Source of the DNA: Candidatus Kuenenia stuttgartensis
GTDB lineage: Bacteria > Planctomycetota > Planctomycetia > Pirellulales > UBA1268
NCBI GenBank assembly: GCA_945891385.1
Contig: CAMDDJ010000029.1
Span: 1-37,788, forward strand
DNA length: 37,788 nt
Direction: 5' to 3'
The notes beneath the pieces are model-generated. The model was not told the origin of the DNA. It searched no databases and saw nothing but the letters and a program-made list of their open reading frames with translations. Position 1 is the stretch's first letter. Each line of letters opens with the position of its first letter. Position numbers and translations under genes: made by a program. Positions 6,268 to 31,989 of this stretch are shown piece after piece.

Positions 6268-6343
6268 GCGACTTTTGCCGCCCCCGAGCCGGTGAGCCAC
6301 GTTTGGCATCGGGCGAGGGGGTCGGCGAACGCTGGCGGAGCAT
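6268..6343 (-). repeat. Element A, rearranged copy, at convergent junction
   Basis: On the minus strand, 6290-6268 reads as the left half of element A (GGCTCGGGGGCGGCAAAAGT and following CGC). 6343-6312 matches its right half (ATGCTCCGCcAGCGTTCGCC and following GACCCCC, one mismatch). The order of the halves is swapped relative to the intact copies at 8930 and 17316, with 21 bases between them, as if the right end of one copy and the left end of a tandem neighbour had been kept. It fills the gap between the metallophosphoesterase (plus) and esterase (minus) genes. Confidence 0.8.
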
Positions 6344-6352
6344 GGCTGTGGG

Positions 6353-7180
6353 TCACGCCAGCCGCCGCGATTCCTGGTCGAGCCGTTCGAGCACGAACGC
6401 AACCACGTCGGGTGAGATGCGGTCGTAGTACTCGCGGGAGTGACCTCCCCCGAGGGGCTCGAGCCGGGCGACATGCGGGATGCCGAGGGCCACGAGTTTG
6501 CTCTGGAGCCGGGCCGAGCCGTCGTACCAGTGCTCGTCGGCCGGGTCACAGGCGAAGAACTGGTGTCGCGGCCAGTTGAGCGGATGGACGTGGAGGATCG
6601 CCGTGTCCTGCCGGGCCCGTTCGGCGTCGCCGTACAGCGAGTGGAGGGTGTCGTAGAGTTCACCTTCGGGTCGCAAGTGGGCGTCGCGGAGCGCGGTGTG
6701 GAAATCGATCGCCGGCGAGATCGCCGCCGCCACCGGGAAGACGGTCGGATGCCGGTAGGCCAGCCGCAGCGCCCCCTGGCCTCCCATGCTCGTGCCAATC
6801 AAGGCGATGCCAGGCGGCGCCACGCCGAAGCGTCGGCCCACCTCCGGCACCACCCGGTCGAGCACGTAACGCTCAGGGGTGGTCGTCGAATCGAAGCTCG
6901 GCACCACGCGATCGAGCCACCAGGAGCGGCCCGTTCGCGGCGCCACCACCGGCAGACGGGCGACCTCGATCGCGTCGCGGAGCACCGGCATCTCTTGAAG
7001 CCACCGCTCTCGAACGCCGTGCAAGTAGATGACGGCCCGGCCCGGGAGCGGGTCGCTCGGGGCGTAGATTTCGCAGGCATGGCCCGCCAGATCGGCCACG
7101 AGCCAACGCTCACGGGGAGGGGCAGCGGGAGGGGACGAGGGCGGGGAGGGCATGGAGTACGACACGGCCGGGTGATTCAT
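6353..7180 (-). CDS. Alpha/beta-hydrolase, putative esterase (esterase D / S-formylglutathione hydrolase-like)
   Basis: A 275-residue predicted cytoplasmic alpha/beta-hydrolase. The nucleophile elbow is GTSMGGQGALRLAYRHP (Ser about residue 132), followed by AAISPAIDF. The catalytic His is probably in LEPLGGGHSREYYD (about 245), and the oxyanion-side strand is VIYLHGVRERW. GxSMGG plus 'ISP' is typical of the esterase D group. That group includes S-formylglutathione hydrolases, but also feruloyl and acetyl esterases, and nothing here decides the substrate. Start: ATG at 7180, chosen because the encoded protein then begins just before the first conserved strand. A TAGAAT box sits only 8 bases upstream on the same strand, so the mRNA leader may be very short. 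It faces away from the phosphoribosyltransferase gene. Confidence 0.8.
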   Translation of the reverse strand: MNHPAVSYSMPSPPSSPPAAPPRERWLVADLAGHACEIYAPSDPLPGRAVIYLHGVRERWLQEMPVLRDAIEVARLPVVAPRTGRSWWLDRVVPSFDSTTTPERYVLDRVVPEVGRRFGVAPPGIALIGTSMGGQGALRLAYRHPTVFPVAAAISPAIDFHTALRDAHLRPEGELYDTLHSLYGDAERARQDTAILHVHPLNWPRHQFFACDPADEHWYDGSARLQSKLVALGIPHVARLEPLGGGHSREYYDRISPDVVAFVLERLDQESRRLA

Positions 7181-7283
7181 CGACGCTATTCTAGTGCTGC
7201 CGGCGGCCGGGGTATCCTGCACCGCAGCGGTGGTTGCCGCCCGACGCGGAACGAACGACACGACAGACGAGGGACTGTGCTCC

Positions 7284-7841
7284 ATGCGGGTGCTGCTGAC
7301 ATCGGAACAACTTGCCGCCGGCATCGAACGCCTTTCTCGCCAGGTCAGCGGCTCGGTCGGGGACCGTCCGCTGATCGTCGTCGGCGTGCTGACCGGCAGC
7401 ATCGTTCTCGTCGCCGATCTGATCCGCCGGCTCGAAGGGCCCGTCCAGGTGAGTATGGTCTGGGCGAGCAGCTATCGCGGCACCGCCACGCGACCCGGGG
7501 AACTCGAACTCAGGCTGGATCTGCTGCCGGACCTGTCTGGCTATGACGTCCTCCTCGTTGACGACATCTTTGACACCGGCCACACGCTCGAGGCCCTGCT
7601 CGACGAACTCCGGCGCCGGGGAGCCGCCTGCGTGCGGTCGCTCGTCTTGCTTCGCAAACAGGGGCGGGCCGAGGTGACGATCGAGCCCGACTATGTTGGC
7701 TTCGAGATCCCGGACGAGTTCGTCGTGGGCTACGGGCTCGATTTCGACGGGGTCTGGCGGCATCTGCCCTACCTCGCCGTACTCGAAGAGGAGGAGATCG
7801 CCGCGACCCGAGCCGCCCGCAATGCCCATGCCAATGGGTAG
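7284..7841 (+). CDS. hpt: Hypoxanthine(-guanine) phosphoribosyltransferase
   Basis: 185 residues, the usual length for the family. It salvages purine bases by joining hypoxanthine or guanine to PRPP in the cytoplasm. Motifs are VVGVLTGSIVLVADLIRRL (N-terminal loop with the cis-peptide region), VSMVWASSYRG (flexible-loop region), the PRPP-binding VLLVDDIFDTGHTL (about residues 88-101, with the paired acidic residues) and the base-contacting Lys region VLLRKQGRAEV followed by PDEFVVGYGLDF. The ATG at 7284 gives the normal N-terminus; upstream in-frame codons lack conservation-like features. The last bases overlap the start of the following glycosyltransferase gene, suggesting coupled translation. 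Confidence 0.9.
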   Translation: MRVLLTSEQLAAGIERLSRQVSGSVGDRPLIVVGVLTGSIVLVADLIRRLEGPVQVSMVWASSYRGTATRPGELELRLDLLPDLSGYDVLLVDDIFDTGHTLEALLDELRRRGAACVRSLVLLRKQGRAEVTIEPDYVGFEIPDEFVVGYGLDFDGVWRHLPYLAVLEEEEIAATRAARNAHANG

Positions 7842-8919
7842 CTCCATTCTGCTCGTCGCCCGCGGGCTCGATCCGGTCGGCACCGGCGGCGAACTCGAAC
7901 TCGCCGCTCTCGGCCTCGTGGCCAAAGGGCTGAGGGTCGTCGTGGCGGTGATGTCGACCGGCGGCGCGGTGCCCGAGCGGCTCGCCGCCCAGGGGCTGAA
8001 AGTCCATCGCCTGGGGACGCGGCCCGTGGTGGATGCGGCCACCGCAGCGCGGCTGGTCCGCCTGGCCCGTCGCGTGCGGCCAGACGTGATCCTCGGCTTT
8101 GGCCGCTCGCAGATCTGGCCCGTAGTCGCCGCGCGAGTCGCAGCGACGGGAAGCCGGGCGATGCTCAGGCTCGGCCGGCCGCCGATCGGACTCGCCCAGG
8201 ACCGGGGGGTCCGCCATCTCGATCGGCTGCTCGTTCCGGCTGCCGACCTGGCCGAGCGTTGGAACTCGGAGATCTCGGCGGCCAGCCGGATCGCGGTCAT
8301 TGCGCCGGGCGTGTTGCCGCCGACACCACCGCGGCTCGACCGGACCGAGGTCGCCCGCAGGCTCGGCCTCGATCCTGACTGCCGCTGGACGGTCGCCGTC
8401 GCTCCGCTCGAACCGGCGAGCCATATCGAGCGGCTCGTCTGGGCGATGGATCAACTCGGCGTGGTTCGCAAAGACATGCAGCACGTGCTCGTCGGGGCGG
8501 GTCCGCTGCTCCACGCCATCCGGCGGCGGACGCGGGCCCAGGAGGTGGCCGAGCGGCTGGTCATGCTGCCGCACAGCGACCTGCTGCCCGAGGTGATCAG
8601 CCAGGCGGCGGTCGTTTGGCAGTCGGGCGACGTTTCGCTCGGCGGCTGCCTGCTCGACGGCATGGCCCGCGGCCGGCCGGCCATCGCGGTCGAGAGCCAG
8701 GCGGCTCGGCAGCTAATTCTCCCAGGTGAAACCGGCCGGATCGTGCCGGCCCTGCCCGAGAGCGAGTTTCCGCGCCGGGTGTTCGGGATTCTCGAAGACG
8801 ACGCCCTTGCGAGCCGACTCGGCGCCGCCGCCGCAACACGGGCCGCGGAGGCCTTCTCCGCGGACCGGTTCGTAGCCGGGCTCGTCACCGCCCTGACGGA
8901 CTCGAACACACATGGGTGA
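7822..8919 (+). CDS. Glycosyltransferase family 4-like protein
   Basis: About 365 residues with a GT-B fold pattern. N-terminal ILLVARGLDPVGTGGELELAALGLVAKG resembles the 'GG.E..l..La..L..rGH' entry loop of GT4 enzymes. The C-terminal half has VLVGAGPLLHAIRRR, then SGDVSLGGCLLDGMARGRPAIAVE (sugar-nucleotide binding) and GRIVPALPESEFPRR, ending in a helix typical of the family. It probably transfers a sugar from a nucleotide donor to an envelope or exported glycan; donor and acceptor are unknown. Three in-frame ATGs (7822, 7828, 7834) are possible starts, all inside the end of hpt. The usual E-x7-E motif is degraded: the position before MARG is Gly-Gly-Cys-Leu-Leu-Asp. Confidence 0.8.
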   Translation: MPMPMGSSILLVARGLDPVGTGGELELAALGLVAKGLRVVVAVMSTGGAVPERLAAQGLKVHRLGTRPVVDAATAARLVRLARRVRPDVILGFGRSQIWPVVAARVAATGSRAMLRLGRPPIGLAQDRGVRHLDRLLVPAADLAERWNSEISAASRIAVIAPGVLPPTPPRLDRTEVARRLGLDPDCRWTVAVAPLEPASHIERLVWAMDQLGVVRKDMQHVLVGAGPLLHAIRRRTRAQEVAERLVMLPHSDLLPEVISQAAVVWQSGDVSLGGCLLDGMARGRPAIAVESQAARQLILPGETGRIVPALPESEFPRRVFGILEDDALASRLGAAAATRAAEAFSADRFVAGLVTALTDSNTHG

Positions 8920-8929
8920 CGGCTGAACC

Positions 8930-9008
8930 GGCTCGGGGGCGGCAAAAGTCGCGTCGCGGGCGAGGATACGCCCCGAATGCTCCGCGAGCGTTCGCCGACC
9001 CCCGAGCC
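8930..9008 (+). repeat. Element A, intact copy 1, at convergent junction
   Basis: A 79-bp palindromic element. Its ends are GGCTCGGGGG (8930-8939) and CCCCCGAGCC (8999-9008), perfect 10-bp inverted repeats. Inside are a GGGCG/CGCCC stem (8958-8962 with 8969-8973, loop AGGATA) and a GCTC/GAGC stem (8979-8982 with 8986-8989, loop CGC), so single-stranded DNA or RNA could fold into a branched structure. It is about 94% identical to 17316-17395 by eye (five differences including one indel). It lies between the glycosyltransferase stop and the fhcA stop. No T-tract follows. Confidence 0.9.
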
Positions 9009-9042
9009 TCACGCCCCTCAGTACGCCGACGAATCCCTCCGG

Positions 9043-10575
9043 CTATCTCAGATTCGCGTCCGCGGTGAGCAGGTGCCCCGGCGAGTGGTCGCGGAGTTCG
9101 CCCTCCTCGACCACGAGCTCGCCGCCCTTGTAGACCCGGACCGGCAGCGAGAACATCCGTTCGAGATCGGGGTCGGTCCGGTAGACGACGATGTCGGCAT
9201 CGGCTCCCGGCCCGAGCTGGCCTTTGCGCGGCAGGCCGGCGATCCGGGCGGGGGCAGCGCGGGTGATCGTGCAGAGTTCCTGCAGGGAATATTCCCGGTT
9301 GATGCCCGCCAGCGGGCTCCGGCTGCGGACGGCCGGATGGATCCGCGCGAAGGCCTCCCGGCGATAGGCCGCATCACCCAAGAGCCGCATGAGTTGCGGG
9401 TAGGCCGTGAAGCACGCCCCGTTGGGGTGATCGGTGGACAGCGCAACCCGCCAGGGATCGTCCACGGTCAGAAACCACTCCAGGCCGATCGCCCACTGCC
9501 AGGCATGGACGAGGTTCTGCTCGCGGTAGGCGATCGGGAGGATGCCACAGCCTCCCGCCTGATAGGAGTCGTGCGACACCAGCGGCACGCCCGTCGCATG
9601 CGAGATGTGTTCGGCCGCCGCCGAGTCAGCCGTCATCGCGACCGTGCCACCGAACAGCACCTGCCCGACGTCGAGCGTGAGGTCGGAGGACACGTTGAAG
9701 AACTCGACCAGCGGCGCGACGCCTGAGCCAAACGAGTCTTCGTCGAGGTCGCCACCCGCATAACTGTGGAATTGCACGTGCGCGAGGTGGGCCCGGCGGC
9801 CGGCGAGCGACCGCATCGTCTCGAGCAGTGTCCGCCAGTTGCCCGGGAGCCCGAGGTTGGCTGTATGAACGTGGAGCGGATGGGGCAGACCGAGCGTGTT
9901 CACGGCCACGGCCAGCCGTTCGAGGATCTGCCGCGGTGTGGCGGGAAGCCCGGGCAGGAGCGTGTCGAGGTCGTGGTGATCTCCCCGCCTGCCCCGCTTC
10001 CAGAAGGCGGGCCCGCCCGGATTGGCCACCTTGATCGCCCAGCCTCGGCCCGCGGTGAGGCCTGCGGCCAGCAGCCGTTCCAACTCGGCCGCGTCGCCGT
10101 GGGCCGCCGCGGCCAGCACGTCGGCCTCGTCGGCGGCCACGAGATAGATGCCGCGATCGAGGATCGGCAGCTCGGCCAGCTCGCGATGGGCGATGGCCGC
10201 GGCGGCCGGGGCGATTGCGGCGTCGAAGGCCGTCGTGTAGCCGAGCGCTGCGTAGAGCAGGCCGGTTGCGTGGATCGTCGGAACTGCGGCCGAACAGCCG
10301 CCCCGTCGACCAGCCGCGAGCTGGGGGGCGAGCATCCGGCCGGCGTTGACCTTGGGACCGGCCAAGTGGCTGTGGAGGTCGACGCCCCCGGGCATGATCA
10401 CGCGGCCGCGGACGTCGACCCGCTCGAACCCGGTCGAGTCGGCGGGCGGCGGCACGATCCGTCCGGCATCGACCCAGACGTCCGCCACGACGCCGTCGCG
10501 ACCCGTGGCCGGATCGTGGACGGTGCCCCCCTCGAGCACGAACCGACGGGCCGACGCTACCGCTGGCTCCGTCAT
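9043..10575 (-). CDS. fhcA: Formylmethanofuran dehydrogenase/formyltransferase-hydrolase complex subunit A
   Basis: 510 residues. In bacteria with tetrahydromethanopterin-linked C1 metabolism, FhcA is the amidohydrolase subunit of the Fhc complex, which turns formyl-methanofuran into formate. The amidohydrolase metal site starts with GGVDLHSHLAGPKVNAGR (His68, His70). Other family signatures are HPLHVHTANLGLPGNW, HLAHVQFHSYAGG, and STDHPNGACFTAYPQLMRLL with the likely catalytic Asp (about residue 380). The C-terminus is a standard LGPGADADIVVYR composite domain. ATG at 10575 overlaps the fhcB stop by four bases (ATGA), so the pair is translationally coupled. fhcC and fhcD are not in the window. 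This gene set is well known in planctomycetes. Confidence 0.93.
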   Translation of the reverse strand: MTEPAVASARRFVLEGGTVHDPATGRDGVVADVWVDAGRIVPPPADSTGFERVDVRGRVIMPGGVDLHSHLAGPKVNAGRMLAPQLAAGRRGGCSAAVPTIHATGLLYAALGYTTAFDAAIAPAAAAIAHRELAELPILDRGIYLVAADEADVLAAAAHGDAAELERLLAAGLTAGRGWAIKVANPGGPAFWKRGRRGDHHDLDTLLPGLPATPRQILERLAVAVNTLGLPHPLHVHTANLGLPGNWRTLLETMRSLAGRRAHLAHVQFHSYAGGDLDEDSFGSGVAPLVEFFNVSSDLTLDVGQVLFGGTVAMTADSAAAEHISHATGVPLVSHDSYQAGGCGILPIAYREQNLVHAWQWAIGLEWFLTVDDPWRVALSTDHPNGACFTAYPQLMRLLGDAAYRREAFARIHPAVRSRSPLAGINREYSLQELCTITRAAPARIAGLPRKGQLGPGADADIVVYRTDPDLERMFSLPVRVYKGGELVVEEGELRDHSPGHLLTADANLR

Positions 10576-11648
10576 GGCTGTTGCTCCGTGAGCCGCTCGT
10601 GCAGCCGCGTCAGCAGCGACTGGAGAGAGTCGCCGTTGGCCGCCGATCCGCCGATGACCGCCTCGCGGCCGTTCCATCCGAGCACCACGCCCGAGTGGGC
10701 GGCGGCGCGGATGTGGACGCTCGGTCCGGCCCCACCTGGCGGCTCGGCCGGGGCAGAGTCGAGCCGGACCACCGCGAGGTCGTTTGCCCGGTCGGCGATC
10801 ACCGCTTCGAGCGTCGGAGCCAGTCGGCCCACGACGAGGACGGCGTCGACCTCGCTCCGAGCGAGGAGCTGCTCGGCCGTGGCTTCCGCCGGCAGGAACC
10901 GGCCGCCGCGACGATCGGCCCGGGCGATGCCGCCCGCCGCACCGTACCGCCAGGTGAGCACCGCCGCGGCACCGGCGGCGTTGTCGAGTTGGTCACGTGG
11001 AGTGCTTGGGAGCGGCACATTGAAGGCCGGCCGGTCATGGGCGAGGTGCCGCACGAGCCGAGCTTGGGACCAGGCGGACAGGCCGAGCGGATCGGAATCG
11101 GACGGTACGACGAAGCCGATGCAGCCGGCCGGGCGGATGGCCGCGGCGATCCTGTCGCAGGCGGCGACCAAAACCGGATCGATGTCGCCAGGGATCACCG
11201 GGTCGATGAGTAAGGCCTGCACGAGGGCGGCGGCATCGACGGCCGCCTCGGTTGCGAGCGGCACATGCTCCCAGCCGGCCAGCGGCCGAGGGCCCACGGC
11301 GAGCCTGCGGCAGGGCAACGCGCTGATCCCATCGAGGCTGTCGGGGCAGAACCAGGCGATCACGAGCTCGGCCCGGACGCGGAGTTCCTCCGGGTCGGCG
11401 GTGACGCTGCCGACCCGGAGCGCGACCGATCCTGCGGGGCTGGCGGTTTCCGGCTCTCCCGCGTCGATGGCGGCCCCGAGCGATTCGGCGAGATCGCAGG
11501 CCGCCGCGATTGCCTCGAGCGGCGCGTCCGCCAGGCCGGTGACCAGAGCCCGCCGGGCCGCTGTCAGGATGCTCGCCCCACGATCGATGGCCTGGGCCAC
11601 GGTGGCGGCTCGGCCATCGATCGTGGCAACGGGGACGGAGGCGTTCAC
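10572..11648 (-). CDS. fhcB: Formyltransferase/hydrolase complex subunit B (FwdB/FmdB homologue without redox centre)
   Basis: 358 residues. It aligns in character with bacterial FhcB: an N-terminal RGASILTAARRALVTGL region, AELVIAWFCPDSLDG, a mid-region ACDRIAAAI, and a C-terminal DAVLVVGRL strand. Archaeal FwdB carries a molybdenum/tungsten-pterin site and an N-terminal 4Fe-4S cluster. Here no clustered cysteines are visible, as known for bacterial Fhc, which only hydrolyses the formyl group and does no redox chemistry. It lies immediately upstream of fhcA with an ATGA overlap. Start is ATG at 11648; a 51-base gap separates it from the PIN-TRAM gene on the same strand. Low sequence conservation of this subunit makes the call depend partly on context. 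Confidence 0.85.
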   Translation of the reverse strand: MNASVPVATIDGRAATVAQAIDRGASILTAARRALVTGLADAPLEAIAAACDLAESLGAAIDAGEPETASPAGSVALRVGSVTADPEELRVRAELVIAWFCPDSLDGISALPCRRLAVGPRPLAGWEHVPLATEAAVDAAALVQALLIDPVIPGDIDPVLVAACDRIAAAIRPAGCIGFVVPSDSDPLGLSAWSQARLVRHLAHDRPAFNVPLPSTPRDQLDNAAGAAAVLTWRYGAAGGIARADRRGGRFLPAEATAEQLLARSEVDAVLVVGRLAPTLEAVIADRANDLAVVRLDSAPAEPPGGAGPSVHIRAAAHSGVVLGWNGREAVIGGSAANGDSLQSLLTRLHERLTEQQP

Positions 11649-11699
11649 GGTCGGAGCACTCTCGGGGCGAAACGGACCGGCGGGGCCGGGCAGCCGACG

Positions 11700-12722
11700 T
11701 CAGGCGGCGCTCGCGAGTCGGGCGAAGACGAGCCGCCCGGCAGAGGTCTGCAGCGTGCTCGTGACGTTGACATGCACGGTGTGGCCGATCCGGCTGCGGC
11801 CGTTCTCCACGACTACCATCGTGCCATCCTCCAGGTAGCCGACGCCCTGATCGGGTTCCTCACCGGGCTTGACCAGCCGCACGGAGAGGCCGTCGCCCGG
11901 CACGAACGTCGGCTTGAGGGCGAGGGCGACGTCGTTGACATTGATCGACGCCACGCTCCGCACGCTCGCCAGCTTCACCACGGTCGGATCGATCGTCACG
12001 ATCCGGCCGTCGAGTTCCCGGGCCATCGCCACGACCCGCGATTCGATCGTGGCCTCGTCCTCGGTCTCCTCGTGGGGGCTGAGCACGTCGATGTCGACGG
12101 CCTTGTTGGACCGTAGCCGGTTGAGCACGTCGAGGCCGCGCCGCCCGCGGGTTCGCTGCTGCCGGTCGGCCGACTCCGCCGCCGCCTGGAGTTCGTCCAA
12201 CACGAAGGTGGGCACCACGAACCGGCTCTCGAAGATGCCCGCTTCGGCCAGGTCGGCGATTCGGCCGTCGATGATGGCCGTGGGGTCGAGCACGTTGGGC
12301 CGCAGCCCCCGGACGTCGCGGGCGAATTCCACGAACGGAATCAGGAAACGAAAGTCGTTGCGGGTCTGAATCAACAGGCTCGTGCAGACGTAGCAGAGGA
12401 CCGCGCCGAGCACCAGCGGCAGCCAGGTCCAGACCGGTGCCGTACGGCTCAGCGGAAGCATCGGCGTGAGTGCAAGCATCGCGATGTAGCTGAGGAAGAC
12501 GCCGATCAGGAGGCCGAAGTAGACGGCTGTGATCGTGGTCAGGTCCTTGTGGCGGATCGAGCTGTCGATGCCGATCACGGTCAGCGGCAGCGCCACCATC
12601 GCCGCGAGAATGGCCCAGGGGACCCACGCCGGCGTGGTCTGCGGCACCGAGGCGTTGATGATGAGCACGGCGATCCCCGCCGATACGACGAGAAAGATCG
12701 CCCGCAGGATGAAGAGTGCCAT
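11700..12722 (-). CDS. PIN and TRAM domain membrane protein (YacL-like putative RNase)
   Basis: 340 residues. Four membrane helices fill residues about 3-130 (for example ILRAIFLVVSAGIAVLII and LLIGVFLSYIAMLAL). A PIN nuclease-like domain follows from NVLDPTAIIDGRIADL, through FVVPTFVLDELQ and RGRRGLDVLNRL, to RIVTIDPTVVKLASV with acidic positions suited to metal binding. A C-terminal TRAM RNA-binding domain (about 275-335) contains GVGYLEDGTMVVVENG. The layout matches Bacillus YacL. It probably acts on RNA at the inner membrane; target unknown. The ATG at 12722 was chosen because it directly precedes the first membrane helix; no Shine-Dalgarno is visible there. Confidence 0.88.
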   Translation of the reverse strand: MALFILRAIFLVVSAGIAVLIINASVPQTTPAWVPWAILAAMVALPLTVIGIDSSIRHKDLTTITAVYFGLLIGVFLSYIAMLALTPMLPLSRTAPVWTWLPLVLGAVLCYVCTSLLIQTRNDFRFLIPFVEFARDVRGLRPNVLDPTAIIDGRIADLAEAGIFESRFVVPTFVLDELQAAAESADRQQRTRGRRGLDVLNRLRSNKAVDIDVLSPHEETEDEATIESRVVAMARELDGRIVTIDPTVVKLASVRSVASINVNDVALALKPTFVPGDGLSVRLVKPGEEPDQGVGYLEDGTMVVVENGRSRIGHTVHVNVTSTLQTSAGRLVFARLASAA

Positions 12723-12805
12723 ACCGATGACGAGAAGAGGAGGCCGGCCAGCCGGCGGCGTGGAGCCCCATGCTACCACCGGACCCGGTCAGGCGGCCAC
12801 GGCGG

Positions 12806-13951
12806 TCAGCCGCCGAGCCGCCGAGCGTGGTCGACTTCCAGAAAGCGATCGGTCATGCCCGCGATGTAATCGGCGACCGAGCGGGGCACGCCCCAGGCCG
12901 CGGCCCGCTCGCGGAACCGGGGGGGCAGCATGTCGGGGTGGGTGACGTACCAGGCGAAGAGTTCCGCCAGCCGTTGCTGGGCCGGCCCTCGAATCGCCAG
13001 GACCCGCTCACTGCGGTAGACCCGGGCGAACAGGAACCGCTCGAGTTCCCGCTTTGCGGCCGCCACCTCAGGCGTGTGGGCGACGATGCCCCGTTCCCGC
13101 CAGCCGTGACCGTCGGCCGCCGCCGGAAGGGAGAGCCCGCGGAGCCGGGCCAGGCTCGTGCGGATCAGTTCCGCCACCTGGACATCGACGAGTTCGTGAA
13201 TGATTGCCCGCCGTAGGTCCGAGCCGGCGAGCGGACCCAGCCGGTCCCGCACGCGGGCGGCGGCCTCGGCCACGAGCGGGAGTTCCAGCAGTTCCTCGAG
13301 CGAGACCAGGCCGAGTTCGATCGCGTCATCGGCATCGTGGGTGTCGTAGGCGATCGAGTCGGCTGCATCGACCACCTGGGTCTCGATCAGCGGGGCCGGG
13401 GCGGTGCCGTCCTTCTTGCGGGTGGCCTGGGCGTCGAGCACCTCGCGGGAGAGATTGAGTCCTGGAAATTCCGGATAACGGATCTCGAGCAGCGTCATGA
13501 TCCGCAGGGCCTGCCCATTGTGGTTGAACCCTCCTTCCGCTCGCAGCAACTCCGCGAGCGTGTCTTCGCCGGCGTGGCCGAGGGGCGGATGGCCGATGTC
13601 ATGTGCCAGGGCCAGCGTCTCCACGAGGTCTTCGTTGACGGCGAGCGCCCGGGCCAGGGTGCGGGCGATGTTGGTGACCTCGAGCGTGTGCGTGAGCCGG
13701 CTGCGGTGGTAGTCGCCGTGGTAGCCGGTGAAGACCTGAGTCTTGTGGGCGAGCCGGCGAAACGCCGCCGAATGAACGATCCGGTCGCGATCCCGTTGGT
13801 AGGGGCTGCGGAAGGGATGGGGCGGCTCGGGGTGCATGCGGCCAGCCGTGTCTGCGGCACGCATCGCCCAGGGCGCGAGCACCGCAGCCTCCCGTGCCCG
13901 CCAGTCGAGCGGCTCGAACGCTGCGGGTGATGATTCGGACGTGGTGGTCAC
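12806..13951 (-). CDS. dGTPase-like HD-domain deoxynucleotide triphosphohydrolase
   Basis: 381 residues. It would hydrolyse dNTPs to deoxynucleoside and triphosphate in the cytoplasm. Signatures are FRSPYQRDRDRIVHSAAFRR, HKTQVF, then the HD metal site HSRLTHTLEV and ALAHDIGHPPLGHAGED, followed by GFNHNGQALRI and the second Asp region DAADSIAYDTHDADDAIELG. This matches the dGTPase-like type 2 group rather than long enterobacterial Dgt. Start is GTG at 13951, inside the GTGA that also ends the HIT gene (13948-13951), so the two are coupled. The gap to the PIN-TRAM start is about 80 bases. Confidence 0.92.
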   Translation of the reverse strand: MTTTSESSPAAFEPLDWRAREAAVLAPWAMRAADTAGRMHPEPPHPFRSPYQRDRDRIVHSAAFRRLAHKTQVFTGYHGDYHRSRLTHTLEVTNIARTLARALAVNEDLVETLALAHDIGHPPLGHAGEDTLAELLRAEGGFNHNGQALRIMTLLEIRYPEFPGLNLSREVLDAQATRKKDGTAPAPLIETQVVDAADSIAYDTHDADDAIELGLVSLEELLELPLVAEAAARVRDRLGPLAGSDLRRAIIHELVDVQVAELIRTSLARLRGLSLPAAADGHGWRERGIVAHTPEVAAAKRELERFLFARVYRSERVLAIRGPAQQRLAELFAWYVTHPDMLPPRFRERAAAWGVPRSVADYIAGMTDRFLEVDHARRLGG

Positions 13952-14499: not shown

Positions 14500-14545
14500 C
14501 GCCGCATGATAACGGTCCGGCTCCGAGGTCGGTAAACTCTCGCGT

Positions 14546-17243: not shown

Positions 17244-17315
17244 ACCGGATCCACGATCGCAGGCCCACTGCCCTCAGGGACCCGGAAGCTCCGACTGCGC
17301 ACCCTCAGCTGTACC

Positions 17316-17395
17316 GGCTCGGGGGACGGCAAAAGTGGCGTTGCGGGCGAGGATACGCCCCGATTGCTCCGCGAGCGTTCGCCGATCCCCGAGCC
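17316..17395 (+). repeat. Element A, intact copy 2, at convergent junction
   Basis: An 80-bp copy of the element at 8930-9008. The ends GGCTCGGGG and CCCCGAGCC are inverted, and the internal GGGCG/CGCCC and GCTC/GAGC stems are kept. Two differences from copy 1 flank the arms (extra A at the left, C to T at the right), and most of the inner sequence is identical. It lies between the hemW stop (plus) and the pntB stop (minus). Confidence 0.9.
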
Positions 17396-17425
17396 TCGCG
17401 TCTTCAGGGCGACGACGGCGGCTCG

Positions 17426-18889: not shown

Positions 18890-18895
18890 CGAGAC

Positions 18896-24154: not shown

Positions 24155-24163
24155 GCGGGGCGA

Positions 24164-25990
24164 ATGGTTCTGGAACAGGAAATCCCCCGGTTCGCGGCCT
24201 GGATCGGCCCGGCCTTGCTCACGTTTCTGCTCACGGTCGGCCTGGTCTCGCTGTTCGTGGGGCTGGCGGCCTGGCTCGTTCAGGCGGCGCGGAGCGGCCC
24301 GCTCGACGCCGGTGATCGCGTCTATCGCGGCATTCTCACCGGGCTTCGCGACCTGGCCGGCACGTCGCCTGGGCGGGTCTGGGCCCTCGCCCGCCTGGCG
24401 ATCCAGGAGGCCGTACGGCGAAACGTGCTCGTGGTCCTCGCCGTGTTCGCGCTCGTGATTCTGTTTGCCGGTTGGTTCCTCGACCCGGCGAGCGTCAATC
24501 CAGGCCGGCTCTATCTCGGGTTCATCCTGGGCGCGTCGACCTTCCTCGTCTGCACCGTGAACCTCGTGCTCGCGGTCTTCAGCCTGCCGGCCGACATCAA
24601 GTCGAAGGCGATCCAGACGGTGACGACGAAGCCGGTGCGGACCGGTGAGATCGTGCTCGGACGGTTTCTCGGGTTCGCGATCGTCGGCACCGTGCTCCTG
24701 ACGCTGATGGGGCTGGCGGGCTGGGCGTTCGTCGTCCGCAGCGTGCAGCACGAGCACGAGCTGACGGCCGGTGGCCTCCAGGAAATCCGCGACGACGAGG
24801 GCACGCTGCTGGGCTACGAGGGCCGCACCGGGTCCGGCCGTGGCCATCGCCACTTCGTGCGGCTCGATGCCGAGGGCAACGGCATCGCCGAGAACACCCA
24901 GGGGCATCGGCACCGGATCACCTCCCGGCCGGATGGCGGCGAGATGGTCTCCACGGTCGGCCCCGCCGAGGGCCTGCTCGAGGCCCGTCGGCCGCTCCGA
25001 GGCACGCTCCGCTTTCTCGACCGCGAGGGGAAGCCCGCCTCGAAGGGTATCAGCGTGGGGGCGGAATGGGCCTACCGCCAATTCATCGAGGGAGGCACCG
25101 CCGCCGCGGCGATCTGGACCTTCGATGGGATCACTGAAGAAGCCTTCCCCGAGGGCCTGCCGCTGGAGATGACGATCCGCGTCTTTCGGACCTACAAGGG
25201 CACGATCACCGAGGGCATCCACGGCACCGTCCAGCTTCAGAACCCGTCGAACAAGCTCCGTAGCGAGGCGATTCCGATCGTGGCCCGGGAGTTCACGATC
25301 GAGGAGTTGCGGATTCCTCGCCGGCTCAACACGGTGCTCGCCGATGGCCGGGTGCAGGAAGCCGACCTGTTCCGCGACTTCGTCTCCGACGGGCGGGTGG
25401 AGGTCTGGCTCCAATGCCTCGAGCCGGCCCAGTATTACGGCGTGGCCCAGGCCGACTTCTATCTCCGGCTGGGCAACGGCTCGTTCGCCTGGAACTATGC
25501 CAAGGGCTGCCTCGGCGCCTGGTTCGCGATGCTGATCGTGACCGCGCTCGGGGTGATGTTCAGCACGTTCCTCTCGGCTCCGGTGGCCCTGGTGGCCGCG
25601 GTGGCGGTGCTCCTCGTGGGCCAGTTTCGCGAGTTCATCTCCCGGCTCTTTCAGAGCCAGCTCACCGGCGACGCCACGATCGCGCCGGGCGGCGGTCCGA
25701 TCGAGTCGCTCTATCGCATCGTGAGCCAGACGAGCATCACGCTCGAACTCGACCCCACGCCAGCCGTGCAGGCGATGAAGCTGGCCGACATGGTGCTGCT
25801 GGCCCCGATGCGGGTGGCCGCCGGTGTGTTTCCCTCGCTCTCGGCCCTCGGCACCGGTGACTTCGTGGCGGGAGGCTTCGACATCCCCGGCGATCTGTTG
25901 GCGGCCGATGCGGCGGAAACGCTGGCCTACGTGGCGGCGTTCTGCATCGCCGGGGCGTTTTGTCTGCGGGCACGGGAGGTGGCATCGTGA
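24164..25990 (+). CDS. ABC-2 type transporter permease with a large histidine-bearing loop
   Basis: 608 residues. Helices are seen near 18-40, 88-108, 115-143 and 170-192. A soluble segment of about 250 residues (195-450) follows, then helices near 450-490 (FAMLIVTALGVMFSTFL and VALVAAVAVLLVGQF) and at the C-terminus. AIQTVTTKPVRTGEIVLGRFLG (149-170) matches the ABC-2 coupling region. The loop holds three His-rich spots: HEH (196-198), HRH (228-230) and HRH (248-250). Substrate is unknown. It overlaps the next gene by GTGA (25987-25990). Confidence 0.88.
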   Translation: MVLEQEIPRFAAWIGPALLTFLLTVGLVSLFVGLAAWLVQAARSGPLDAGDRVYRGILTGLRDLAGTSPGRVWALARLAIQEAVRRNVLVVLAVFALVILFAGWFLDPASVNPGRLYLGFILGASTFLVCTVNLVLAVFSLPADIKSKAIQTVTTKPVRTGEIVLGRFLGFAIVGTVLLTLMGLAGWAFVVRSVQHEHELTAGGLQEIRDDEGTLLGYEGRTGSGRGHRHFVRLDAEGNGIAENTQGHRHRITSRPDGGEMVSTVGPAEGLLEARRPLRGTLRFLDREGKPASKGISVGAEWAYRQFIEGGTAAAAIWTFDGITEEAFPEGLPLEMTIRVFRTYKGTITEGIHGTVQLQNPSNKLRSEAIPIVAREFTIEELRIPRRLNTVLADGRVQEADLFRDFVSDGRVEVWLQCLEPAQYYGVAQADFYLRLGNGSFAWNYAKGCLGAWFAMLIVTALGVMFSTFLSAPVALVAAVAVLLVGQFREFISRLFQSQLTGDATIAPGGGPIESLYRIVSQTSITLELDPTPAVQAMKLADMVLLAPMRVAAGVFPSLSALGTGDFVAGGFDIPGDLLAADAAETLAYVAAFCIAGAFCLRAREVAS

Positions 25991-27522
25991 GCGGCGGAAC
26001 CACGCGGGCGGCGGGACGAACCCGACAGGCATGGCTGGGGCTGCGGCCGGAAACCCTCCTGGCGCTGGTGGGGATCGTGGCCCTCTTGGTGCCGCTCTCG
26101 CTGCTCGCCCAGCCGGCCGACTCCGAGGGGCCGGGCGGGCTGCTGGCTCGGATGCGGAAGGCCCGGGGGCTGTCGCAGGCCAATCTGGGCGAGATCGATC
26201 CGGCCGGCGAGACGATGCGGTTTGCCACGCTCGGCCTCAAGAATGTCGCCACGACCCTGCTCTGGGATCGGGCCAACCACTACAAGAAGGTCGAGGATTG
26301 GGCCAACCTCTCGGCCACGCTCGAGCAGCTCACGAAGCTCCAGCCCAACTTCTATTCCGTCTGGGATTTCCAGGCCCACAACCTCTCCTACAACATCTCC
26401 GTCGAATTCGACGACTTCCGGGATCGGTACGCCTGGGTGATCAAGGGCATCGAGTTTCTCCGGCAGGGGATCGCGCTCAACCGGTTCGAGCCGCGGCTGC
26501 TGGGCCGGATGGGCTGGTTCGTCGGCCACAAGATCGGAAAGTCGGACGAGAAGGAGGAGTCTCGCAAGCTGTTCATCGCAGACGACGATTTCCACGAACG
26601 GGACGATCCCCAGCGGACGATCCCCGAGCGGGACAACTGGCTCGTGTCGCGGACGAAGTTCATCCAGGGCCAGCAGCTCGCCGACGCCGGCGCCCCGCTC
26701 AAGACCACACCCCTCATCTTCCACAGCGAGCCGATGATGTCGGCGATCAACTACGGCAAGGCGCTCGAAGAAGACGGCAGCTTCGGCACGGCCGCCCGGC
26801 GGGCCTGGGAACTGGCCGGCGACGAGATGCGGCGGTTCGCCATGCGGGAGATTCCCACGAGCTGGAACGTGCCCATCCGGCTCGGCCTGAGGGAGGCGGA
26901 GGAGGCCCGGGCCAAGCGGCTGGGCGAGGAACTCGAGTCGCTCCTGCCGGGACAGTTCGCGGCGGCCGAAGCAGAGCGACGCGCGGGGCTGTCGGCGGCC
27001 CAGAAGGCCGCCCTGGAGGTGTCGGTGATGGAACGCACCGACGAAGAGCAGCAGCAGGCTGCCGATGCCGAGGCGGCCTTGAAGGTGAGCTGGAAGGACG
27101 TCGCCCGGGCGGCGCCGGCCGACGTTCGCGGCCGGGCCTGGGAGCTCGCCCTCGAAGAGGCGGAGGCCCGAGAGACGGCTGACATCATCGGCCGCTACCG
27201 CGACATCGTGAACTTCGATCTCTGGCGGGCCACCTGTGAGGCCGAGGTGACCGAGCCGGCGCTTCGGGCCCGAGAGCTGACCTGGAAGGCCGACAAGGAG
27301 TTTGCCGCAGCCCGGCTCCAGGCCGCCCGCGAGGCGTATGAGGGAGCCTTCAAGGCCTGGCGGGAAGTGTTCGACCAATCCAAGATCCTCCGCGAGGACC
27401 CGATCACGGCCGAAGACACCGCCGAGATCGTGGACCGGTATCGCAAGCTGCTTGAACAGCTCGACGAGCCGTTTCCCTCCCCCTTCATCCTCGACGACAT
27501 CCTGGCCCTGATCGGGCCGTAG
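25987..27522 (+). CDS. Membrane-anchored protein of unknown function, third gene of the ABC-2 system
   Basis: 511 residues. One membrane helix at about residues 25-42 (TLLALVGIVALLVPLSLLA) follows a short basic N-terminus, and the remainder is soluble and mostly helical. Parts resemble tetratricopeptide-type or coiled-coil packing (WANLSATLEQLTKLQPNFYS; a long Glu/Ala/Arg-rich stretch at about 300-430). I recognise no catalytic motif. Start GTG 25987 overlaps the permease stop, implying a stoichiometric partner of the transporter. Of the neighbouring genes only the ABC pair gives a hint of role. Confidence 0.75.
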   Translation: MSGGTTRAAGRTRQAWLGLRPETLLALVGIVALLVPLSLLAQPADSEGPGGLLARMRKARGLSQANLGEIDPAGETMRFATLGLKNVATTLLWDRANHYKKVEDWANLSATLEQLTKLQPNFYSVWDFQAHNLSYNISVEFDDFRDRYAWVIKGIEFLRQGIALNRFEPRLLGRMGWFVGHKIGKSDEKEESRKLFIADDDFHERDDPQRTIPERDNWLVSRTKFIQGQQLADAGAPLKTTPLIFHSEPMMSAINYGKALEEDGSFGTAARRAWELAGDEMRRFAMREIPTSWNVPIRLGLREAEEARAKRLGEELESLLPGQFAAAEAERRAGLSAAQKAALEVSVMERTDEEQQQAADAEAALKVSWKDVARAAPADVRGRAWELALEEAEARETADIIGRYRDIVNFDLWRATCEAEVTEPALRARELTWKADKEFAAARLQAAREAYEGAFKAWREVFDQSKILREDPITAEDTAEIVDRYRKLLEQLDEPFPSPFILDDILALIGP

Positions 27523-27530
27523 GTCGGATC

Positions 27531-27558
27531 GCGACGCGACGTGTGCCGTCCCCGAGCC
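27531..27558 (-). repeat. Element A, left-half fragment, at convergent junction
   Basis: On the minus strand, 27558-27531 reads GGCTCGGGGACGGCacACGT and GCGTCGC, matching the left end of element A (GGCTCGGGGGaCGGCAAAAGTcGCGTcGCG). The right half is absent. It sits between the stop codons of the membrane-anchored protein (27522) and the CNNM protein (27607). Confidence 0.65.
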
Positions 27559-27606
27559 GGGACGACGGAGTTGACCGAGGTTGTGGGGACGAAGCCGAGT
27601 GTGTCG

Positions 27607-28893
27607 TCAGCGGCGGCTGACCAGGAGCTTGTCGATCCTGCGGCCGTCCATGTCGACGACCTCGAAGGCCAGCCCGTTCCATTCCACGCGGTCGCCTGTG
27701 GCAGGCATCCGTTCCAGTTCCGCCAGCACCAGCCCCGACACGGTGGCGTAATCCCGCGGCCCGTCCTCGAGTTCGAGCCCGAACCGTTCAGCGAGCTCCT
27801 CGATCGTGGCGCTCCCGTCGACGAGCCAGGAGCCGTCTTCCCGCTCGACGAAGGTCTGGGGCTCCACGCGGCGGTGTTCGTCGTGGATCTCCCCTACCAG
27901 TTCCGCGAGGATGTCGTCGAGCGTCACGAGTCCGTCGGTGCCACCATATTCGTCGAGCACGATCGCGAACTGGGCCCGCTCCTTTTGAAAGAGCTCGAGC
28001 AGGCGGTCGAGAGGCATCGTCTCGGGCACGAACACCGCCCGGTGCGTCAGTTTCCGGAGTTCGATCGGCCAGCCCATCCAGGACGTCCGCAGCACGTCCT
28101 TGATCGAGACATATCCGACGATTCGGTCGAGCGAGCCCTCGTAGACCGGCAGCCGGGAATAGCCGGCCATGGCCACGGCCCCGAGGACCTCCTCGGGCGG
28201 CGTGTCGATGTCGAGCGCGTCGACGTCGATCCGCGGTCGCATCACGTCCCGCACGGTCCGTTCGCCGAGCCGGAGCGCCTCGGCCGCGACGGCATGCTCG
28301 ACCGCCTCGAGCACCCCTTCGGCCCGCCCTGTCTCGAGCAGCTGCTCGATGTCATCCACCGACACCGAGGGCTCCTGTCCGCCCCGGGTACCGAGGAGCG
28401 TCATCACGGCGGACGTGCCGATGTTCAGACCCCACACGAGCGGCGACGCCAGCCGGGAGAACCTCTGGACGACCGGGGCGACCCAGCGGGCAAAGACCTC
28501 GGCGTTTCGCAGGGCCAGCCGCTTCGGCACCAGCTCCCCGAGGACGAGCGTCACGAAGGACAGCAGCATCACGAACGTGGCCAGCGCGACCGGCTCCGCG
28601 ATCCCCGCCCATCCGGGAACCGCCGCCGCGATCCGGTCGCGGATCATCGCCACCAGCCGCTCGCCGCCGTAGGCTGCCGCCAGGGTGCCGACGAGCGTCA
28701 CCCCGACCTGCACGGTCGGCAGGAAACGGTCCGGATTGGCTGCGAGTTCGAGCGCGATCCGGGCCGACGCGTCGCCCTCGTCGGCCATCGCCCGCAGCCG
28801 GCCGCGGCGGCTGGCGACGATCGCCATTTCGGCTCCCGAGAAGAGGCCGTTGGCCAGCACGAGCGCGAAAATGATGATGAGTTCCGACAGCAT
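27607..28893 (-). CDS. CNNM/CBS-pair/CorC transporter-associated domain protein (hemolysin-like)
   Basis: 428 residues. Four hydrophobic segments form the DUF21/CNNM transmembrane domain at about 1-190 (MLSELIIIFALVLANGLFSG; PTVQVGVTLVGTLAAAYGG; LGELVPKRLALRNAE). A CBS pair follows at about 205-330 (VRDVMRPRIDVDALD, YSRLPVYEGSLDRIVGYVSI, FAIVLDEYGGTDGLVTLDDI), then a CorC_HlyC domain. Such proteins are linked to magnesium/cobalt homeostasis; 'hemolysin' is a historical label. It starts 17 bases after proB on the same strand, so it is probably cotranscribed. Confidence 0.92.
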   Translation of the reverse strand: MLSELIIIFALVLANGLFSGAEMAIVASRRGRLRAMADEGDASARIALELAANPDRFLPTVQVGVTLVGTLAAAYGGERLVAMIRDRIAAAVPGWAGIAEPVALATFVMLLSFVTLVLGELVPKRLALRNAEVFARWVAPVVQRFSRLASPLVWGLNIGTSAVMTLLGTRGGQEPSVSVDDIEQLLETGRAEGVLEAVEHAVAAEALRLGERTVRDVMRPRIDVDALDIDTPPEEVLGAVAMAGYSRLPVYEGSLDRIVGYVSIKDVLRTSWMGWPIELRKLTHRAVFVPETMPLDRLLELFQKERAQFAIVLDEYGGTDGLVTLDDILAELVGEIHDEHRRVEPQTFVEREDGSWLVDGSATIEELAERFGLELEDGPRDYATVSGLVLAELERMPATGDRVEWNGLAFEVVDMDGRRIDKLLVSRR

Positions 28894-28910
28894 GGATGTC
28901 TCGAGGGCAG

Positions 28911-30056
28911 TCAGTCTCGACAGATCACTGCCAGGTTGTCTCGGTGGATCACCTCCTCGTAGGGGCAGTAGCCGAGCACCTCGGCGATCCGTTCGGTCCG
29001 CAGCCCGATGATTCTCGTGAGCTCCGCGGCCGGATAGTTGACCAGACCGCGGGCGAAGGCGGGGCCACCGCCACAGGAAAGCGCCACGACGTCGCCGGCG
29101 GTGAACTGGCCCTGGAGGCCCGCCACGCCGGCGGCCAGAAGGCTGCGGCCCCCCGCCACGATCGCCTGTCGGGCACCCGCGTCGACCTCGATGGTACCGC
29201 GGGCCTCGGCCGACCAGCCGAGCCAGCGTTTCCAGGCCGGCATGGCCTCGTCTCGGCCCACGAACAGCGTGCCGACCGGCTCGCCCCGCAGGATCCGCTC
29301 CAGCACGTCGTCATCCCGACCGGAAGCGATCACGCAGGTTCCTCCCGCCTCCGTCATGATCCGGGCGGCTGCGATCTTGCTGGCCATTCCCCCCTTGGAG
29401 AGCCCGCCGGGCCGGTCGCAGGCCAGCCGCTCGACGGCGGCGTCGATTCGCGACACGGTCGGCAGCACCACGGCACCGGCCTCGCCGGGATGCCGGTCGA
29501 AGAGCCCGGCCACGTCCGAGAGCAGCACCAGCAGCGGGGCCCCGATCAGCGTCGCCACGAGGGCCGCCAGACGGTCGTTGTCGCCGAAACTCGTCCGGAG
29601 TTCCTCGACGCTGACGGTGTCGTTTTCGTTGATGACCGGGATCGCTCCGTAGTCGAGCAGCGCCCGGAGGGTGTTGCGGATATTCAGATACCGGGTGCGG
29701 TGCTGGAGGTCTTCCGCGACCAGCAGCACCTGGGCCACGTGTCGTCCCCGGCTGCGGAGTGACCGCTCCCAGGCCTCGATCAGGCTGCTCTGGCCGATGG
29801 CGGCGATGGCCTGAAGCTGTGCCAACTCGGTGGGCCGCTCCGTCAACCCGATTCGTCCCATGCCGGCCCCAACCGCGCCCGAACTCACGAGCACCACCTG
29901 GCGGCCGGAGCTACACGCCGCGTCGAGCTGCTTTCCCAGGGCCTCGATCCGCCGCGGATCCAACAGCCCATCCACGCCGGTGAGCACCCGAGTGCCAACC
30001 TTGACGACGATGAGGCGGGCGGCAGCGGCAAGCTGCTGACGGAGAGGGTCGCTCAT
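28911..30056 (-). CDS. proB: Glutamate 5-kinase
   Basis: 381 residues. It catalyses the first step of proline synthesis, phosphorylating glutamate with ATP. The amino-acid kinase domain is clear: [87 protein letters not shown], and [15 protein letters not shown]-terminal PUA domain (about 285-370, starting [15 protein letters not shown]) is present, as in E. coli ProB. No proA neighbour is seen. First gene of a two-gene unit with the CNNM protein. Confidence 0.96.
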
Positions 30057-30147
30057 GGGCCGGAACCGGGCAGCGTCCGAAGGGTGGGACGGGCGGGAAA
30101 CCCACTATGGTATCCACCCACCGGCTGCGTCGATACACTGACCCGGG

Positions 30148-30162
30148 CCGCGGTTTCCGCGG
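30148..30162. promoter_or_regulatory. GC-rich hairpin in the leader of the PurF-like gene
   Basis: CCGCGGTTTCCGCGG is a perfect 6-bp stem with a TTT loop, 41 bases before the start codon, inside the proB/purF-like divergent gap. It could form in the transcript or bind a protein; no function is demonstrated. Confidence 0.3.
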
Positions 30163-30202
30163 GAATTTTCCGGCTCTCCTGCCTTCGGCCGAACCGACAA
30201 CG

Positions 30203-31780
30203 ATGAGCGACCTGCATCACGAGTGCGGCCTGGCGGCCATCTACCACCTCCCGGCCGCCGAGACGAGTGCCCTCTGCCCCGCCCAAGGACAAGAGGAGGC
30301 ATCGCGGCTCATACCCCGGATGCTGCTCGACATCCAGAATCGAGGTCAGCTCTCCGCCGGGATGACCGCCTGGAACCCGAGTCGCAGCCATCTCCTGGCC
30401 ACCTACAAGGACGTCGGGAGCGTGAGCGAGGTCTTTCGAATGAGCCATCGCGGCAAATACGAGAGCCTGATGGAGCAGCACACCGGCCGGGCGGCGATCG
30501 GCCATGTTCGCTACGCCACCTGCGGCGCCGAGGATCGGGGCTACGCCCAGCCGCTGGAGCGGCCGCACATCCAGAAACGGAAGTGGTTCGCCTTCGGCTT
30601 CAACGGCCAATTGGCGAACTACCCGGAATTGCGGGCCGAAATCCTTGCGACCGACGACGCCCACCTCGCCCGTGACAACGACACCGAAGTGATCATGCAC
30701 GCCATCGGCCGGGAGTTGTCGGGCGACGCCGACCCGACGCCAACCGACCTCCTGGCCGCGATCGCCCGGCGGTTCGACGGCGCCTGGAACCTGGCGATCC
30801 TGGATGCCTGCGGCCGACTGATCGTGGCCCGCGATCCGCTCGGCATCCGCCCGCTGGAATATGCCCAGGAGGGGCCGCTGGTGGCGGCTGCCAGCGAGAG
30901 CGTCGCGCTGCTCAACCTTGGCTTTCCGACCGAATCGATTCGGTCGCTCGAGCCGGGCACCGCGCTTGTCATCGACTCGAGCGGCCTGCGGATCGAGCGG
31001 TTTGCACCGTCCCCGACCCGGGCCCACTGCTTCTTCGAGTGGGTCTACTTCGCCAATGTCGCGAGTTCCATGGACGAGCGGAGCGTCTACCTGTCTCGCA
31101 AGCGGTTGGGGGAGGAACTGGCCCAGCTGGAGACGGTTCCCATCGACGCCGACACGGTCGTGGTGCCGGTGCCCGACACGAGCAAGGCGGCCGCCGACTC
31201 GCTCGCCTATCGGCTCTCGATCCCATGCGTCGAAGGCCTGATCCGGAATCGCTACACAGGTCGCACCTTCATCGACGGGGCGGCCAGTCGCCGCCAGAAG
31301 GCCGAAACGAAATACACGCCGCTCCGCGAGGTGCTCGAGGGCAAGCGGGTGATCCTGGTCGAGGATTCGATCGTCCGCAGCACGACCATGCGGGTGCTCC
31401 TCGGCCGCATGCGGTCGCTCGGACTCGCGCGGGAAATCCATGTGCGGGTCGCCTGCCCGCCGATCGTCGCGCCCTGCTTCTACGGGATCGACATGTCGAC
31501 GATCGACGAACTCTTCGCCCCGGAGTTTCTCGCCGGCGGGCCTCTGACCGACGAGGTCCAGGCCGCGATGGCAGCCCGGCTCGGGGCCGATTCACTCCGC
31601 TATCTGCCGGTGGAGGCGGTGGCGCGATCGATCGGGTTCGAGAGCGACAGTCTCTGCCAGGCCTGCCTGACGGGCCACTATCCGACCCCGGCTGGCGAGC
31701 GGCTCTACCAGGTGGCGCTCCAGCAGAGCCGCGCCGGTCGCCACGCCACCCGCACCTACGAGTCGGCCGCCACGCCGTAA
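30203..31780 (+). CDS. Amidophosphoribosyltransferase-like protein (PurF family, iron-sulfur type)
   Basis: 525 residues. The N-terminus [14 protein letters not shown] suggests a short propeptide before the Ntn nucleophile Cys8. The glutaminase domain has GHVRYAT and [13 protein letters not shown]. The PRPP loop is [14 protein letters not shown] (about 383-396). Cysteines of the B. subtilis-type 4Fe-4S site are present: HCFFEW (about 275), ACPPIVAPC (about 417) and CQAC (about 486). The loop usually reading LQHRGQE-[SA]-AG reads [11 protein letters not shown], so the sequence is divergent and may be a paralog rather than the sole purF. Canonical role would be transfer of glutamine amide to PRPP in purine synthesis. 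Divergent from proB. Confidence 0.85.
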
Positions 31781-31854
31781 GGCGGGGCTGAACGTTCGCC
31801 GGACACTCGGTTCGGTGACGGATGGAGGCGCGGAGACGACGTCCTGTGGTGGGG

Positions 31855-31989
31855 CGGGGTTGCCCGTGCCCCGAGAGCCGGACGTTCGTTACGGGCATCC
31901 TGCCCTTCGCTCACTCGGAGAGAACTGCGCTCCGCCATCCATGGCTCCGCTGGTTCTCTACGCCGGCTCTCGGGGCACGGGCAACCCCG
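31855..31989. repeat. Element B: 135-bp palindromic element with perfect 27-bp inverted arms
   Basis: Left arm 31855-31881 begins CGGGGTTGCCCGTGCCCCGA; the right arm 31963-31989 is its exact reverse complement. The 81-base interior holds GGGCA-TCC-TGCCC, AGAGAAC paired with GTTCTCT, and GCCAT-CC-ATGGC at the apex. The whole could fold into a long hairpin with a side branch. It lies between the stop codons of the PurF-like gene (31780) and trmB (32016). No U-tract directly follows the stem. A 15-base piece recurs after rpmG. Confidence 0.9.

Follow-up and report, generated by a model that had tools for sequence, protein, structure and literature searches.

The window analysed here, 37,788 nucleotides in length, is the complete contig C29 (CAMDDJ010000029.1) of a 3.77 Mb draft genome of Candidatus Kuenenia stuttgartensis (150 contigs, 93.9% complete). 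For one conserved protein, the nearest named matches are from planctomycete metagenome genomes, several of them labelled Pirellulales or Planctomycetaceae. The window's gaps between converging genes carry two palindromic repeat families, element A of ~85 nt and element B of ~145 nt, which are probably (we put this at roughly 0.65) non-autonomous mobile repeats comparable to repetitive extragenic palindromes (REPs) and miniature inverted-repeat transposable elements (MITEs), enriched at convergent 3' ends by tolerance together with an extra preference for these sites. The repeats have a high copy number, form tandem arrays, are nested in one instance, are present or absent at conserved junctions and are enriched at convergent junctions in three species.

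Genes were called with an in-house codon-model caller, which reproduced exactly the five convergent junctions named in a preliminary description of the window: 6250/6353, 8919/9043, 17243/17426, 27522/27607 and 31780/32016. Scanning of the entire window with profiles of A and B, built from copies in the same genome, showed that all five gaps are occupied, two by a full A, two by A fragments and one by a full B. No match at E 1e-3 or better was found in any other gap of the window, in agreement with what had been described. One full A lies on the forward strand at 8927-9009 (gap 8920-9042, E 3.4e-25) and has many genomic copies at 94-99% identity; the other lies on the forward strand at 17313-17396 in the gap between pntB and a hemN-like gene (17244-17425, E 9.6e-23). 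The full B occupies 31849-31991 of the forward strand in the gap between the purF-like and trmB-like genes (31781-32015, E 9.7e-37), and an extra B match of E 1.5 at 31793-31815 falls inside the same gap. Gap 6251-6352 holds two reverse-strand fragments, one end of an A at 6257-6293 (profile positions 1-37, E 1.5e-6) and the opposite end of another A at 6313-6343 (profile positions 51-81, E 7e-4), an order that suggests neighbouring units of a tandem array. The reverse-strand A fragment at 27529-27560 (gap 27523-27606, profile positions 2-33) is 32 nt long and weak, with E 9.6e-5 in a scan of the window alone, and it lies under the threshold used for the genome sample, at which the window scores four of five. 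Scans of 20 shuffled windows (3-base blocks) with both profiles gave zero matches at E 0.1.

Sixty 20-kb stretches, totalling 1.2 Mb or about one third of the genome, made up the genome sample, with the window excluded from the counts. Elements were tallied for convergent, same-strand and divergent gaps and junction counts were compared by Fisher tests; 12 A and 5 B matches at stretch or contig edges, and one of each within a called gene, were omitted. Element A occupies 18 of the 139 convergent gaps, compared with 21/598 same-strand gaps (p 5.6e-5) and 4/135 divergent gaps (p 0.003), the per-junction rates of the latter two being similar. The corresponding counts for B are 8/139, 17/598 and 7/135, and the convergent bias in this genome is firm for A, not for B. 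Combined, A or B is found in 25/139 convergent, 37/598 same-strand and 11/135 divergent gaps, leaving 114 of the 139 convergent gaps without both elements. Thus, the earlier propositions that the repeats are exclusive to convergent gaps and that every convergent junction holds one fail outside the window, and the association is a tendency rather than a rule. A genome-wide tabulation had been proposed as a check, with copies equally common in other gaps, or convergent junctions mostly lacking them, as contrary outcomes; on the 1.2 Mb it recovered the convergent enrichment of A, but copies also occur in the other gap types and the majority of convergent junctions lack them. With four of five convergent gaps occupied vs. 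25/139 elsewhere, the window is an extreme draw (Fisher p 0.006, uncorrected, for a window picked by a reader). Copies within called genes are rare (1/68 A matches and 1/44 B matches), and the A core, with two mismatches allowed, has 211 genome-wide matches vs. 2 for a reversed control pattern.

The convergent bias recurs in two congeners, G017 and G018, whose contigs were picked partly for earlier element matches on them, and it extends to three unrelated families in one genus. In G018, B occupies 7/50 convergent, 4/211 same-strand and 1/47 divergent junctions (p 0.001 vs. same-strand), and A is scarce (one convergent, one same-strand and no divergent junction). In G017, A occupies 8/42, 9/187 and 4/48 junctions, respectively (p 0.005 vs. 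same-strand), and B is present at three convergent junctions and at no same-strand or divergent junction. The third family, the unrelated palindrome C, was found in G017 at 17/42 convergent, 8/187 same-strand and 0/48 divergent junctions (p 5e-9 and 3e-7); searches with the same pattern showed no C in the samples of G018 and of the genome of the window. Taken together, A, B and C occupy 25/42 convergent junctions of G017, compared with 15/187 same-strand and 4/48 divergent junctions.

Avoidance of start codons accounts for part of this distribution. The elements were collapsed to events, the DNA within 50, 100 or 150 bp of start codons was removed and the events per kb were compared; C copies in composite arrays may be tallied as more than one event. 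In the genome of the window, convergent gaps then carry 2.7 events/kb, compared with 0.75, 0.66 and 0.45 in same-strand gaps (p 1e-6 or lower) and 0.46-0.49 in divergent gaps. The rates are 5.3 vs. 1.0-1.3 for convergent and same-strand gaps in G017 (p ~2e-6 or lower), and 1.0 vs. 0.3-0.4 in G018 (p 0.03, 0.05 and 0.18 at 50, 100 and 150 bp). All three samples showed a depletion within 50 bp of starts, which in the genome of the window amounts to 0.25 (same-strand) and 0.08 (divergent) events/kb vs. 0.75 and 0.46 beyond. Short-range start avoidance therefore contributes, but it does not explain the convergent bias in at least two of the three species (clearly in two), and an extra convergent preference beyond simple start avoidance remains. 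Two causes of this extra preference seem about equally probable: the elements may be retained preferentially, as a mild barrier against read-through from either side, or they may be inserted preferentially.

Four of the five junctions, all except 6250/6353, were compared across relatives. For the pntB/hemN-like junction, 36 relatives had a first protein of at least 75% identity, and 20 with the same gene pair were usable; the 16 rows set aside lacked a partner label (5), a following gene (4) or a gene call (7). For the other three junctions, loci below 60% identity were dropped (24/90) and the window's own copy was uncounted. Pooled over the four junctions, 52 of 70 gaps are at most 36 bp long and hold neither A nor B (4 of the 52 being computed overlaps of 83-113 bp), 6 hold A or B and 12 are longer without either, the 70 relatives being not all independent, with six locus pairs at least 93% identical over more than 1 kb. 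Thus, A and B are lineage-specific and dispensable. The proportions are similar at the individual junctions: 13 gaps of at most 30 bp without an element, one with B and 6 longer ones without A or B among the 20 pntB/hemN-like pairs; 11 short empty gaps, one with A and 3 longer without A or B at the amidohydrolase/glycosyltransferase junction (15/22 usable); 13 short empty, 3 with B and 3 longer without A or B at the trmB/purF-like junction (19/20 usable); and 15 empty gaps of at most 36 bp, one with A and none longer at the CNNM-family junction (16/21 usable). Among the 13 unusable rows of the latter three junctions, 3 have A or B near a contig end. Where convergent junctions of this lineage are unoccupied, the two genes often stop just a few bases apart. 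By eye, some of the longer pntB/hemN-like gaps without A or B hold other inverted repeats, and other GC-rich inverted repeats or tandem units are visible at the orthologous junctions of four relatives (L063, L312, L347 and L352).

The two elements differ in how they are conserved. Element A, with a tandem period of ~100 nt, consists of two conserved outer arms, in which CGGCAAAAGTC is invariant across 22 aligned sequences from relatives and the genome of the window, and an apical hairpin that varies among variants. Terminal inverted repeats are present: the window's full A copies pair over ~10 outer bp and a CGGC/GCCG step, and the outer pairing is less perfect in many copies elsewhere. Element B consists of a long stem enclosing inner stems. 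In single-strand folding, B at 31849-31991 has a minimum free energy of -98.1 kcal/mol (z -9.1 vs. shuffles). For A, the copy at 8927 folds better than shuffles on both strands (z -3.1 and -3.4), but no such excess is seen for the copy at 17313 (z -1.2) or for either fragment gap (z -1.5 and -1.3). The branched fold of B is maintained through compensatory changes: in 25 of 30 fetched copies from the genome of the window, 97.4% of cells pair vs. 30-49% when the fold is slid, two-sided changes occur in 14/42 pairs (shuffled mean 8.1) and covariation is 0.209 vs. 0.075 shuffled. Across relatives and this genome together (29 of 30 fetched loci), two-sided changes occur in 12/31 predicted pairs. 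Concerted repair of the arms, by template switching in palindromes, could yield changes of this type without selection. No compensatory changes were found in 15 predicted pairs of A (22 sequences of 30 fetched loci); the arms of A are conserved as sequence, and the covariation test therefore says little for or against its fold. Rfam gave no match for B, a repeat family with a covarying fold, or at the gathering threshold for the window. Side-by-side inspection of arrays (e.g. L254 and L175) showed that the ~16 bp spacers between tandem A units are alike within an array and different between arrays, with a weak GTCAA-like core, and look as if arrays grow in place.

A survey of 60 genomes, in which copy numbers are lower bounds with at most 14-15 candidates per genome scored, found A in 31 and B in 34, the genome of the window included. 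All matches lie in its own family (37 of the 60), with none in the remaining 23, which belong to different families of the same order. One family member, G022, has A or B in 0 of 7 convergent gaps in 80 kb, too few to weigh. The high copy number, the lineage-specific presence, the arrays and the nested copy argue for mobility. In the nested copy (L169:19190-19418), the one case found, B lies between two halves of an A and replaces its apical hairpin. A and B would then be mobile non-autonomous repeats within a single planctomycete family, of the same kind as REPs, bacterial interspersed mosaic elements (BIMEs) and MITE-like repeats, which may spread by transposition, with each lineage carrying its own versions and sets. 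Copies would enter intergenic DNA and be lost or not kept within genes and near start codons, and would as a result build up at the 3' ends of genes, above all between two facing 3' ends. Selection against promoter damage may generate part of the bias. Of the two explanations offered in the preliminary description, mobile hairpins tolerated at these sites fit best; the elements are not required at transcript ends, given the short orthologous junctions without A or B.

Several results weigh against the mobile, tolerated repeats that we favour. The start avoidance is short-range, with same-strand gaps of the genome of the window carrying 0.68 events/kb inside 150 bp of starts vs. 0.45 outside. 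Outside start-proximal DNA, the convergent rate in this genome is 3.6-6 times the same-strand rate, and tolerance alone is therefore insufficient. B is not enriched per convergent junction in this genome (p 0.11 vs. same-strand and 1.0 vs. divergent), and in the congeners not every comparison with divergent gaps reaches significance (p 0.21 for A in G017 and 0.06 for B in G018). Within junction type, A and B co-occur at chance in this genome (2 observed vs. 2.1 expected, few cases). No exact empty site was obtained. Matches of the flanks averaged 4.29 vs. 3.74 shuffled (s.d. 0.17; 31 isolated copies), the excess coming largely from two copies with flanks resembling array spacers, and a target-site duplication is not established. 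An autonomous parent element bounded by A or B ends was sought in the genome of the window (1.24 Mb, A and B), in G018 (0.40 Mb, B only) and in G017 (0.36 Mb, A only), and none was found: no halves of A or B were paired in transposon order at most 5 kb apart, save those flanking the nested B in L169. The Y1 transposase domain (Y1_Tnp, PF01797) has no match in the 93.9% complete genome, in a search whose controls matched in 5/14. This domain has matches in 23/60 surveyed genomes, including four in G022, which has no A or B match. A REP-associated tyrosine transposase (RAYT) or IS200 element was rejected as the mobiliser on the absence of PF01797 from the genome of the window and of a visible tie to A and B abundance (by eye, on loose first-look counts).

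Comparisons with known systems, drawn from the available portions of the papers cited, place A, B and C in a familiar class of repeats and show that such a positional bias has precedents. A and B share with REPs a large number of copies that lie mostly outside genes, alone or in clusters, whereas the REP length of 20-40 nt (PMC3733652) or 20-50 nt (PMC8266576) is exceeded by both. Like A and B, GTAG (GTRG) REPs and BIMEs, associated with RAYT (TnpA-REP), are high-copy intergenic palindromes with tandem clusters (PMC3733652, PMC1525189). REPs are found chiefly near 3' ends, in convergent and unidirectional gaps (PMC3733652), a preference that A shows in part outside the window (convergent above divergent, same-strand like divergent per junction) and that B does not show in the genome of the window. 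A and B differ from GTAG REPs in length, in the absence of a Y1 match from the genome and, for B, in a fold with compensatory changes. GTAG/GTRG is absent from the flank consensus of A (44 copies), and at B flanks it occurs in 22 of 33 distinct flanks in the genome of the window, in 2/27 on the other side, in 5/19 flanks from relatives and in 0/4 from G018. CGTC-tagged REPs are, as A and B are, palindromic and intergenic with no known transposase linked to them, and tagged REPs are also reported in Planctomycetes (PMC3733652); their lengths differ from those of A and B. CGTC is absent from the flank consensus of A in the same 44 copies, some single A flanks containing it, and from the 10-base consensus preceding the B stem, on that side only. 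RAYT-like (TIRYT) transposases have terminal inverted repeat families, described from genomes that include the planctomycete Rhodopirellula baltica (PMC3733652), and these are likewise inverted repeats, single or clustered; the likeness is one of description, and the lack of a Y1 match sets A and B apart. Stem-loop sequences in a survey of prokaryotes, which favour convergent over divergent gaps and sit after stop codons (PMC1590033), are a general class, whereas A, B and C are each a defined repeat family and belong to a single planctomycete lineage.

A and B also resemble longer repeats in length, imperfect terminal inverted repeats and intergenic location. ERIC and NEMIS/Correia are MITE-like palindromic repeats of ~100-150 bp with imperfect terminal inverted repeats that lie between genes. 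A and B differ from MITEs in that a target-site duplication is not established and the sampled DNA holds no parent element. Integron attC sites were also considered as a comparison and set aside. A, B and C are apparently undescribed: the open-licence literature, represented mostly by titles and the openings of abstracts, gave no description of them. As far as the available portions go, the convergent bias of such repeats is attributed in the literature either to a transcribed role at 3' ends (PMC3733652, PMC1590033) or, for REPs, which are frequent between convergent genes, to harmlessness (PMC1525189). Here, three families share the bias, both occupied and empty orthologous junctions exist and the bias exceeds short-range start avoidance. 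Function vs. tolerance thus becomes testable, by comparing a given gene pair with a copy in some relatives and without one in others.

A tentative alternative is targeted insertion, in which the mobiliser would prefer the DNA between converging units (through supercoiling or exposure of single strands) or the tips of hairpins already present. The convergent excess that persists after removal of start-proximal DNA is consistent with it, as are the B that replaces the apical part of an A, the variation of A apical hairpins and the argument, in the available portion of PMC1525189, that the DNA between convergent genes is supercoiled and carries no bound regulators. However, a single nested case was found, and co-occurrence is at chance both for A with B and for A with C in G017 (4 observed vs. 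3.7 expected, few cases).

It is rather doubtful that the elements are selected at the ends of two transcripts, their transcribed hairpins stopping or stabilising both mRNAs by a Rho pause, a stabilising 3' fold or a collision barrier. The enrichment shared by three unrelated families across three species, the convergent excess outside start zones and the compensatory changes in B point in this direction, and the available part of PMC2817692 says that REPs facilitate Rho-dependent termination. Near-full-length A is more frequent at convergent gaps (24/25 vs. 22/30 elsewhere, p 0.03), but full-length B is not (7/12 vs. 19/26), and convergent copies do not score significantly higher against the profiles (A p 0.11, B p 0.48). 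Furthermore, same-strand and divergent gaps hold copies as well, three of the window's four gaps with A fold no better than shuffles, and the short orthologous pairs without A or B show that such an element is not required. Ordinary intrinsic termination had been discounted in the preliminary description, and indeed none of the 20 listed terminator-like sites (hairpin and T-run) falls in the five convergent gaps, their totals being close to shuffle level (8 vs. 6.1 and 12 vs. 8.5). A two-way transcript-end effect may nevertheless exist where copies sit, in view of the excess outside start zones and the more frequent full-length A. A combined form, in which convergent junctions retain mobile palindromes of several unrelated families as two-way transcript barriers and B is a mobile transcript-end module spread by a non-Y1 route, is unlikely. 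A coincidence of the window or an artefact of gene calling is very improbable: the window is an extreme draw, and 61/144 sample convergent gaps are at most 30 bp under a simple in-house caller, but the enrichment is also seen beyond the window and in congeners, and the five stop positions agree between the reader and the caller.

Three minor observations concern individual copies and contigs. A B fragment had been described after the rpmG-like gene (37493-37657), and a remnant at about 37718-37747 matches the flanks of other B copies by eye, but it was missed by the B profile. In G017, C often lies within a longer composite unit that fills many convergent gaps (loci L281-L298, e.g. L297:16808-17325); a sub-threshold Rfam match to a CRISPR repeat in L297 was disregarded. 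Eight contigs of the genome of the window (C2, C4, C5, C14, C22, C72, C78 and C113) have their first few hundred bases within or beside A copies or arrays, and A repeats therefore probably break the assembly.

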